Shown here: positions 26,714 to 29,162 of the stretch, one piece after another
How the letters are laid out: each line of letters starts with the position of its first letter
How positions within the stretch are numbered: position 1 is the stretch's first letter
NCBI RefSeq assembly: GCF_016907755.1
Contig: NZ_JAFBCN010000001.1
Coordinates: 4,092,001-4,156,000 of the forward strand
Reading direction: 5' to 3'
From: Cellulosimicrobium cellulans
GTDB taxonomy: Bacteria; Actinomycetota; Actinomycetes; Actinomycetales; Cellulomonadaceae
Length of the DNA: 64,000 bases
Program-made: the position numbers and the translations under genes
The notes under the pieces: model-generated
Told to the model about the DNA's origin: nothing
Databases searched by the model: none
The model's input: the letters and a program-made list of their open reading frames with translations, nothing else

Positions 26714-26728
26714 CTAAAGCCTGTCGAA
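26714..26728 (+). repeat. Left terminal inverted repeat of the element
   Basis: CTAAAGCCTGTCGAA, identical to the reverse complement of 29086-29100. The transposase stop codon (26732-26734) is just inside it. Confidence 0.85.
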
Positions 26729-26731
26729 GAA

Positions 26732-27511
26732 CTACCTGGGTTCGAGGCGGCGTAGCAGGAGCCTGATCTGGGAGAGCATCACGAATGCTTCGTGAGCGCC
26801 GAGGGTGCTCTCATACTGCCGGACGAGTCGTCGGTGGCGGTTGATCCATCCGTTGGTGCGTTCGACGACCCATCGGCGTGGTTGGACGACGAAGGCGTCG
26901 GCGGGCTTGGGGCCCGACACGATCTCCAGCTCGATCCCGGCGCTGGCGGCGGCCTGGGCGGGCGCCTGGCCGATGTAGCCCTTGTCGGCCCACACCCGGC
27001 GCACGGTGCGGCATCGGTTGCGCGTGAGCAGCTGCGCGAACGCGGCCCTGTCCTGGACATTGGCGGCGGTGGCGTGCACGGCCAGGAGTCATCCGGCCGT
27101 GTCGACGAGGATGTGCCGCTTGATGCCGTCGATCTTCTTGGCTCCGTCGAAGCCGCGCGGCCCGGGCACGGGCGTGCTCTTGACCGAGGATGAGTCCACG
27201 ACGGCCGCCGTTGGCGCCTTGTCGCGGCCGGCGTGAACGCGGTCCTCGGCGCGCAGGCCGGCGAGCATCTGCTCCCACAGCCTCGTGTTCGTCCACTTGG
27301 TGAAGTGCTTGTGCGTCGCGGACCAGGTCACGGTGAAGTCGTGCGGGAGCGAGCGCCACGGGATGCCGGTGGTCACGATGAACAGCAGTGCGTTCACGTA
27401 CTCGCGCCATCGATGCTCGCAGCACGGTCGCCCACCGCGGTCGCCGCGGACCGGCATGACGAGGTGCCGGATGCGCCACCATGCGGCTTCGGTCAGGTCG
27501 GACGGGTATCG
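26732..27511 (-). pseudogene. IS5-family DDE transposase interrupted by one in-frame TGA
   Basis: Reading right to left, RYPSDLTEAAWWRI (27511 on) is the usual IS5-family N-terminal motif. The first part contains the first catalytic Asp in AVVDSSSVKS and ends GIKRHILVDTAG at TGA 27089-27091. The frame resumes in the same phase as LLAVHATAANVQDR and includes the second Asp (WADKGYIG) and Glu (VVERTNGWINRHRRL), ending TAG 26732. All three catalytic residues survive, and one base change, for example TGG to TGA, explains the break. No good start codon is seen upstream of ATG 27457 in this frame. Confidence 0.88.
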
Positions 27512-27608
27512 GCGGCGCGGGCCGGCTGGACAGTCACACGGACGCGATCGTGCAGGTCGGCGCTGACATCCCGGGTCGTGTCAGTGCTGGTCGGTAGCGT
27601 GCTCGGCG

Positions 27609-29045
27609 ATGGCTCGGCACACGACGTTCCAGCTGGTGGCTGACCCCACCGTGGAGCAGGCACGCGCCCTGGCCCGTCATGAGGGGGCCGCCCGGTTCGC
27701 GTTCAACCAGGGCCTGCGACTGCACCTGAACGCCCGCCACGTTGCCAAGAGCACCGTCGACGTCGACGCCGTGCCGGTGCCGTGGACCGGGTTCGACCTG
27801 ATCAACGCGTTCAACGCGTGGAAGCGCAGCGAGGCCGCCGGCCGCCGGTTCGTCGTCGACGCCGCTGGGCAGACGGACGTCGAGGTGACCGGCCTAGCAT
27901 GGCGGGCCGAGGTCTGCGCGCAGGTCTTCGAGGAAGCCGTCGTCGACCTCGGCAAAGCCCTCAAGGCGTGGACCGACTCCCGGCGCGGCAAACGTGCCGG
28001 CAGGCCGGTCGGGCACCCACGGTTCAAGAAGAAGAACCACGAACGCGGTTCGTTCCGCATGCGCAACAAGGTCTCCACGACCAAGGCCGGCCAGCGGGCC
28101 ACGATCCGTCTCGGCGAGGCTGGACCCCGCTCGGTCACGCTGCCCGGCATCGGCGCGATCAAGGTCCACGACGACACCCGCCGACTGCGCCGCATGCTCG
28201 CCAGCGGGCGTGCGCGGATCCTGTTCGCCACCATCTCGCGCCGTGGCGGCCGGTGGTGGATCAGCCTGAACGTCGAGGCAGCCGACCTGCACCCCGCCGC
28301 CCGCCATGTCGAGCGCATCGACGCCGACCACGGCGGCTGGGCCGGGGTTGACCGCGGACTGCACGCACCCGTCGTCGTCGCCCTGACCGACGGCACCCAG
28401 ACCCTGCGGATCACAGCGGCACCCAAGGCGCTACGGGCAGCGCAACCGGTCACCCGCCGGTTGCAGAAGTCCGTGTCCCGCAAGGTCAAGGGCTCGGCGA
28501 ACAGGCGGGCCGCCGTCGCACGCCTGGCCCGTCATCACGAACGGGTCCGTGCCCGCCGTCACCACTTCCTGCACCAGGTCTCCAACCTGCTGGTCCAGAC
28601 CCACGACCGGCTCGTCCTCGAAGACCTGAACATCACCGGCATGCTCACCAACCACCGGCTCGCCGCAGCCATCTCGGACGCGGCCTGGGGTGAGCTCGCC
28701 CGCCAGATCACCTACAAGCAAACCTGGCACGGCGGGCAAATCCTGACCGCTGACCGGTGGTTCCCGTCCTCGAAGACCTGCTCCAACTGCGAGGACGTCA
28801 CCACAACGCTCACCCTCGCAGACCGTGTCTTCGTCTGCGAGAACTGCGGGCTCACGATCGACCGCGACCTGAACGCCGCGGTCAACCTCGCCACCTGGGG
28901 CGAACAGCACTTCTCCCAGGTCCTGGACCCCGAAGCGCGAGGCCAGGTCACCAACGCCCACCGACGGGACGGCTCTGGCCGACGCACGCGCGCCGACGAA
29001 ACCAGCCCGGACGACGTGGGAACCCGCACCGCCACCGCGGCATAG
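27609..29045 (+). CDS. tnpB: TnpB, RNA-guided DNA endonuclease (IS605 OrfB family)
   Basis: 478 residues, full length. RuvC motifs are complete: Asp248 in WAGVDRG, Glu338 in LVLEDLNITGM, Asp418/420 in IDRDLNAAVN. The zinc ribbon is C391-x2-C394 and C410-x2-C413. The N-terminal beta-barrel/helical region has the usual basic patch GRPVGHPRFKKK. TnpB proteins use an omega RNA from the element end to cut DNA and favour retention of the transposon. No Y1 or serine TnpA is present; the partner here is an IS5-type transposase. A short hairpin follows the stop codon. Base composition looks less GC-rich than the neighbours, fitting transfer. Confidence 0.93.
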   Translation: MARHTTFQLVADPTVEQARALARHEGAARFAFNQGLRLHLNARHVAKSTVDVDAVPVPWTGFDLINAFNAWKRSEAAGRRFVVDAAGQTDVEVTGLAWRAEVCAQVFEEAVVDLGKALKAWTDSRRGKRAGRPVGHPRFKKKNHERGSFRMRNKVSTTKAGQRATIRLGEAGPRSVTLPGIGAIKVHDDTRRLRRMLASGRARILFATISRRGGRWWISLNVEAADLHPAARHVERIDADHGGWAGVDRGLHAPVVVALTDGTQTLRITAAPKALRAAQPVTRRLQKSVSRKVKGSANRRAAVARLARHHERVRARRHHFLHQVSNLLVQTHDRLVLEDLNITGMLTNHRLAAAISDAAWGELARQITYKQTWHGGQILTADRWFPSSKTCSNCEDVTTTLTLADRVFVCENCGLTIDRDLNAAVNLATWGEQHFSQVLDPEARGQVTNAHRRDGSGRRTRADETSPDDVGTRTATAA

Positions 29046-29085
29046 GGACGTCCGAGAAGGACGCTGCCGAACGCCCCAGAGGTTG
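29046..29085 (+). ncRNA. Possible 3' part of a TnpB guide (omega) RNA
   Basis: Directly after tnpB, CGTCC (29049-29053) and GGACG (29059-29063) form a hairpin with loop GAGAA. In known elements the omega RNA overlaps the tnpB 3' end and finishes at the element end, with the guide taken from flanking DNA. That location is all that supports the call; the full RNA would start inside tnpB. Confidence 0.25.
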
Positions 29086-29100
29086 TTCGACAGGCTTTAG
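29086..29100 (-). repeat. Right terminal inverted repeat of the element
   Basis: TTCGACAGGCTTTAG, exact complement of the left repeat at 26714-26728. Confidence 0.85.
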
Positions 29101-29162
29101 AGTCGTCACGGCCCGACATCGATGCCCGACGTCAGACCTTTGCGCCCCCCGGAGGATCCCCC

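Follow-up and report, generated by a model that had tools for sequence, protein, structure and literature searches.

In prokaryotes TnpB, the presumed ancestor of Cas12, has been described either alone or paired with a transposase of the Y1 or the serine type. For the TnpB of IS200/IS605 elements, sections of PMC11870625 describe a guide that derives from the flank of the element, a target-adjacent motif (TAM) that equals the transposase's preferred site, and recutting of the excision junction by the nuclease. Fanzor has been found in DDE transposons of eukaryotes and viruses, namely in Mariner, IS4-like, Sola and MuDr elements (Bao and Jurka 2013, PMC3627910; Yoon et al. 2023, PMC10711439, each as far as the relevant sections go): an algal-virus element of IS4 type is among those listed in sections of PMC3627910, and sections of PMC10711439 place Fanzor2 inside two cut-and-paste families. 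Here we describe an element in a 64,000-nucleotide stretch of the Cellulosimicrobium cellulans genome (assembly GCF_016907755.1, contig NZ_JAFBCN010000001.1, positions 4,092,001 to 4,156,000; this whole stretch is referred to as the window), in which the ends of an IS5 element, an IS5-family DDE transposase gene (tnpA) and a tnpB gene are one mobile unit. Searches of the open-licence literature, outside of which most subscription papers lie, turned up no account of an IS5 element that carries a bacterial TnpB. The element is made up of the following features, with positions counted from the first letter of the window:

26717..29097, no strand: the whole IS5-TnpB element, 2,381 bp, delimited by the empty site in three genomes, the second copy in the same genome and the copies in the family
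26715..26716: first TA of the 2-bp target duplication, based on the CTAG found at this site in three genomes of the same genus
29098..29099: second TA of the target duplication, based on the empty-site alignments
26717..26732, + strand: left (tnpA-side) terminal inverted repeat, AAGCCTGTCGAA, with a partial match beyond
29082..29097, - strand: right (tnpB-side) terminal inverted repeat
about 27541-26732, - strand: tnpA, IS5-family DDE transposase gene, with an in-frame TGA at 27089-27091; the start codon is not settled
27609..29045, + strand: tnpB, 478 amino acids, intact, with RuvC residues D248, E338 and D420 placed by alignment

In three genomes of the same genus (loci L006, L007 and L008) both flanks of the element are joined in an uninterrupted site, GGCGCTAGAGTC. 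With the flanking bases, C (26714) and G (29100), this empty site reads CTAG, and since the flanks are joined at CTAG in all three genomes, the whole unit inserted into CTAG, duplicating TA. Joined flanks were also seen for the insertions L051 and L052, in other genomes of the genus to which these belong; over the three sites taken together (window copy, L051 and L052) the junction is CTAG in 7 of the 9 alignments and CTAC in one, with the left side unaligned in another. The insertions L060, L061 and L062 have only one-sided matches in other genomes, and the site of the second copy in the window's own genome (L002) had no match among the loci already retrieved, no wider search having been made. 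This second copy is 84% identical over its length and lies directly after the lipoyl synthase gene lipA. In the 221 genomes of the family that we searched, the element is matched over its full length at 9 places, spread over 6 genomes, and two pairs of 99.4% identical copies occupy different sites (L051/L061 in genome G209 and L052/L062 in G219), as would fit transposition by the element's own transposase. G209 holds a third near-identical copy, L204 (G209:C1:1337000-1344000), the tnpA of which is split by ~1.5 kb of other DNA.

A search of the same 221 genomes with the end-repeat pattern returned 14 inverted pairs. Twelve of these are spaced 2.2-2.41 kb and each encloses matches to both genes; the remaining two are 3.93 kb (L204) and 70 bp apart, and no pair in these genomes has the spacing of 0.9-1.4 kb that corresponds to a transposase-only element. 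At L076 (about 2032-2104; G169:C20) two tnpB-side ends stand face to face in a palindrome of ~70 bp, a gene-free miniature element. The left flank of L062 and the right flank of L060 adjoin stretches that resemble another IS5-type transposase; the elements may cluster. An earlier sequence-only reading of the window had placed TnpB inside one IS5-like DDE mobile unit and had named several copies at different sites, together with empty sites, as the findings that would prove it: both were found, and the placement is borne out by the empty sites, the dispersed copies and the end pairs that enclose both genes. The two cases that the same reading had set against itself, IS5 ends lying directly around the transposase with tnpB outside and a separate insertion of tnpB, did not turn up, either among these end pairs or as an inner copy of the end within the element.

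As judged by profile scores, the protein belongs to the guided TnpB family (NCBIfam guided_TnpB, NF040570; 227 bits, cut-off 100), and it also matches Pfam OrfB_IS605 and Cas12f1-like_TNB. Residues D248, E338 and D420 align with the RuvC residues of a solved TnpB-like nuclease, and a C4 zinc motif is present; the alignment columns of these motifs are conserved among the sequences compared. The score is under the cut-off both for IS607_TnpB (NF038280; 311 bits, cut-off 350) and for NF038281 (198 bits, cut-off 425). Neither the serine recombinase gene expected of an IS607 element nor the Y1 transposase gene expected of an IS200/IS605 element lies between the ends: the IS5 transposase gene is the only other gene, and inverted repeats are present instead. 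The two halves of the window's tnpA match NCBIfam transpos_IS5_3 (NF033580) with 89 and 76 bits (cut-off 110), as well as Pfam DDE_Tnp_1 / DUF4096, and the intact transposase of L061 (180 bits) and that of L147 (127 bits) score above that cut-off, as IS5 DDE transposases do. Because the in-frame TGA splits tnpA, the window copy is probably not autonomous.

The terminal inverted repeats and the short target duplication are likewise those of an IS5 element. With the duplicated target bases included, the inverted ends share 15 perfect matches, CTAAAGCCTGTCGAA, followed by a partial match. A repeat comparison within the element found no inner copy of the end repeat between tnpA and tnpB; the two genes are divergent, with tnpB (+) reading away from tnpA (-). 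Both ends could be placed in 27 elements; the tnpA-side end has CTA before it in 26 of them and the tnpB-side end has TAG after it in 23, in a count where L059, L066, L068 and L072 have low-scoring left ends and the right ends of L061, L064, L058, L145, L149, L173 and L071, which the automatic finder overshot, were read individually. These results agree with most of what had been read from the letters of the window: the positions of the two genes and of the two ends, the inverted ends with 15 perfect bases and a partial match beyond (provided that the duplicated target bases are counted), the lack of an inner repeat copy splitting the two genes, and a TnpB with complete RuvC and zinc motifs, now supported by profiles and by alignment to solved relatives. 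The IS5-family transposase is present as well, with the one correction that its gene is interrupted.

The two genes differ in how they have been kept. In a stop-codon test of 26 elements, 5 of which are tnpB-only forms, tnpB is stop-free in 25, while tnpA can be read through in a single frame in 8, five of which (L051, L061, L052, L062 and L063) are clean. The ratio of nonsynonymous to synonymous substitution rates (dN/dS) for tnpB is 0.18-0.33 across nine pairs. By these measures tnpB stays intact and selection on it is purifying, whereas decay or deletion of tnpA is common.

Downstream of tnpB, the element ends in what we predict to be the guide-RNA scaffold:

29049..29063, + strand: hairpin 1 (CGTCC-GAGAA-GGACG) in the predicted guide RNA, adjoining the tnpB stop, from the predicted fold
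29064..29093, + strand: hairpin 2 of the predicted guide RNA, which folds, and the 3' arm of which is the right terminal inverted repeat
29098..29121, + strand: predicted guide segment in the flanking DNA, placed from the end of the scaffold relative to the end of the element, its first base uncertain by ~3 nt

All aligned members have hairpin 1 (CG[T/C]CC-GAGAA-GG[A/G]CG) after the tnpB stop, then hairpin 2, and then ~2-5 conserved bases to the end. The middle pair of hairpin 1 is C-G in 23 of the 41 relatives and T-A in the other 18. Where IS5 ends are absent, hairpin 2 forms a free stem that varies in sequence; where the member is IS5-borne, the terminal repeat, GTTGTTCGACA[G/C]GCTTTAG, makes up the 3' arm of this hairpin. 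Its outer pair is CTG/CAG in 18/41 and GTG/CAC in 17/41: where the repeat carries CAG in place of CAC, the opposite arm carries CTG in place of GTG. Scored by a rule that is blind to the partner, the outer pair is standard in 39/41 (the two missed are, by comparison, L070 and L071, which have a shorter hairpin), and none of 10,000 shuffles, which take no account of relatedness, came as high, the best reaching 32. A locus with no detected IS5 ends, L150 (G907), shows the CTG/CAG hairpin state outside the main CTG/CAG group. The tnpA-side end folds less well than the tnpB-side end in 10/10 full-length copies. Furthermore, L164 and L145 have CCTGTC as the left end and GACACGC as the right end, and because GACACGC matches the GTG arm of these elements but differs from the end on their left, the right end follows the RNA arm. 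The comparison thus shows two abutting hairpins after the tnpB stop, with one arm of hairpin 2 being the terminal repeat in IS5-borne members, and we infer that the end of the element doubles as the predicted guide-RNA scaffold. TnpB had been described as apparent cargo of the DDE element; it is carried by that element, but its position makes it more than cargo, since the predicted scaffold extends into the terminal repeat.

To establish how far the arrangement extends, we combined several searches. A scan of 84,980 species genomes, from which records near the window's own may be omitted, gave ten carrier loci: in Isoptericola cucumis, Luteimicrobium album, L. xylanilyticum, Xylanimicrobium pachnodae (three loci), Oerskovia flava, Demequina soli, and one metagenome-assembled genome (MAG) each of Promicromonosporaceae and Mycobacteriaceae. 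A profile search detected the TnpB clade in 10/394 genomes of the class, own genome counted, and in 15/401 Mycobacteriaceae genomes, the family label of this last set resting on one contig common to the named MAG. In the mycobacterial composites L164, L144, L147 and L166 both genes, or their remains, lie between IS5-type ends with the sequence CTAAAGC[G or C]TGTCGAAC or a near variant of it, and the transposases are 37-67% identical to the L061 TnpA. As judged from these sequences, the TnpB-in-IS5 arrangement is general, with the same organisation recurring in other genera and families.

Some members contain no transposase gene. The mycobacterial L145, L146, L165 and L167, each ~1.7 kb long, have tnpB as their only gene and open with the tnpA-side end of the composite; as all four retain that end, they have lost tnpA and kept tnpB. 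L145 and L146 also match the composite beside tnpB. In another genus of the window's family, the tnpB-only elements L069 and L072 begin CTA-nGGCGTGTTTCGGAA, with L066 and L068 being weaker. A separate 1.3-kb IS5 element stands at CTAG in L126 (1500-2780; G194:C13) and scores 240 bits with the same IS5 model. Its ends are the outer ends of the tnpB-only elements of the same genus, and it is possible that L126 is a transposase donor that moves them in trans.

In a tree of 42 TnpB rows, three groups make up the rows with IS5 ends: one joins Cellulomonadaceae with Demequina and L164, one holds the remaining mycobacterial rows, and one is the further genus. The rows without detected IS5 ends (10/42) require four state changes, at least three of them forced by well-supported branches, a count that undetected, decayed ends would reduce; the pattern fits either repeated capture or repeated loss. 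The tree omits L064, L152 and L173 (frameshift or partial), the pairing count omits L074, alignment A3 omits L067 for its internal stop, and L054 is absent from both. Three TnpB relatives without detected IS5 ends (L070, L071 and L074) stand directly beside a tRNA gene, and L070 and L071 also share the downstream gene, which suggests vertical inheritance. Carriage by phages or plasmids was rejected: viral contigs gave no match to the end pattern and no relative of the protein, none of the 97 partial matches in plasmid records covers 80%, and a single phage record matches a 230-base stretch of TnpB.

We consider it likely that this is an IS5 cut-and-paste element with a standing TnpB, the end of the element being the guide-RNA scaffold and TnpB cutting the empty CTAG so that the element is retained. 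The tnpB transcript would be trimmed to a guide RNA, with the scaffold stopping at the right end of the element and the flanking DNA of the present insertion site serving as the guide. TnpB would recognise a motif located at CTA(G) or inside it, the sequence that the transposase itself targets. Departure of the element, or a sister or incoming copy without it, would restore CTAG beside the guide match: as the site of the transposase is CTAG, the empty site would show CTA(G) next to the sequence that the guide matches. TnpB would then cut the restored site, and repair would copy the element back. One DNA end would in this way be read twice – as DNA by the DDE transposase and as RNA by TnpB. It is from these parts that we infer a retention role for TnpB.

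Several observations weigh against this scheme. The transposase of the window copy is itself the interrupted one. As to the pairing, the CTG/CAG state goes back to a small number of changes, two as a minimum (the Cellulomonadaceae group and L150); an earlier rule for the pairing site gave 37/40, with the three unpaired rows mis-picked; and two of the 41 relatives, L058 and L147, have the right letters yet are unpaired there in the predicted fold. The stem of hairpin 2 is imperfect in IS5-borne members. The 54-nt fold beats shuffles modestly (z -1.74, 9/200 as good), the last 160 nt fold no better than shuffles (z -0.07), and an Rfam search of the guide-RNA region gave no match. The tnpA-side end also folds, almost equally well in L051 and L061. 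Finally, the first base of the guide is uncertain, conservation in relatives without IS5 ends extending 2-3 nt further, and the TAM could not be read from a member without IS5 ends, the empty (intergenic) sites of which are too diverged.

Could the two genes stand together by accident? Transposase-less TnpB elements are common in general, and one of them might have landed in or beside an IS5 copy, with the ends paired by chance. Nested insertion of tnpB into an IS5 copy is ruled out because the uninterrupted sites lack the whole unit, and the empty sites in three genomes, together with the 12 end pairs enclosing both genes, make the element more than a chance association; with near-identical copy pairs at different sites besides, we regard accidental nesting, in favour of which nothing turned up, as wholly implausible. 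It is harder to dismiss the idea that TnpB is a passive passenger on IS5 with no part in transposition or retention, given that relatives in the same clade without detectable IS5 ends show that TnpB can live apart. We still judge it unlikely: a passenger would not be expected to persist where tnpA has been lost, to show the low dN/dS of tnpB, or to have a scaffold that changes together with the terminal repeat, and the end pairs found include no transposase-only element with these ends.

Alternatively, TnpB might regulate or inhibit the IS5 transposase, for instance as an RNA-protein complex on the shared end, instead of cutting empty sites. Its RNA would be complementary to the end that the transposase must bind, and the scaffold overlaps that end; the divergent placement of tnpB and tnpA would suit such control too. 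Against this stands the RuvC triad, D248, E338 and D420 being retained and each either invariant or placed in a column that is invariant in the alignments used, which points to a working nuclease, and we hold a purely regulatory role to be quite improbable. A broader version of the retention scheme is, in our estimate, evenly balanced between right and wrong: bacterial IS5 elements would have captured TnpB more than once, its TAM coinciding with their CTAG target, each capture fusing the terminal repeat to the scaffold, so that the end is doubly selected and the cut-and-paste transposon carries a self-reprogramming homing drive.

The sequence-only reading had noted that a guide-directed nuclease aiding the persistence of a cut-and-paste DDE transposon would, if general, be a distinct arrangement. 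Bacterial TnpB standing inside DDE elements closes the gap between prokaryotic TnpB and DDE-borne Fanzor, and the question why transposons keep guided nucleases becomes testable in a cut-and-paste element. In the element, moreover, nature offers a case where the same bases would be constrained both by the specificity of a transposase and by the structure of a guide RNA, and it is a source of TnpBs whose predicted TAM, of the CTA(G) type, would be easy to test.

With the IS5-family elements that target CTAG – the IS427-like group, CTAG and TA being typical of one IS5 subgroup – the element shares the transposase family (transpos_IS5_3), the inverted ends, and insertion at CTAG with duplication of TA. 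It is longer, twice the usual IS5 length, because tnpB is part of it. With IS200/IS605 and IS607 elements, as presented in sections of PMC11870625 and PMC10711439, it shares a TnpB with RuvC and zinc motifs, a predicted guide RNA that overlaps the 3' end of tnpB and stops at the right end, a guide from the flank, and a TAM expected to equal the transposase target. It differs from them in having a DDE transposase, and not a Y1 or serine one, with inverted ends and a TA duplication, and in that a terminal inverted repeat, which has to serve the transposase as well, forms the right end of the predicted guide RNA. Like the Fanzor-bearing DDE transposons, as far as the sections cited cover them, it places a TnpB homologue between inverted ends and occurs in transposase-bearing and transposase-less forms. 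Unlike them, it has a bacterial host, an IS5-family transposase and a bona fide bacterial TnpB, and its terminal repeat and guide-RNA arm change in a coordinated way that the sections of PMC3627910 and PMC10711439 drawn on here do not describe for Fanzor.
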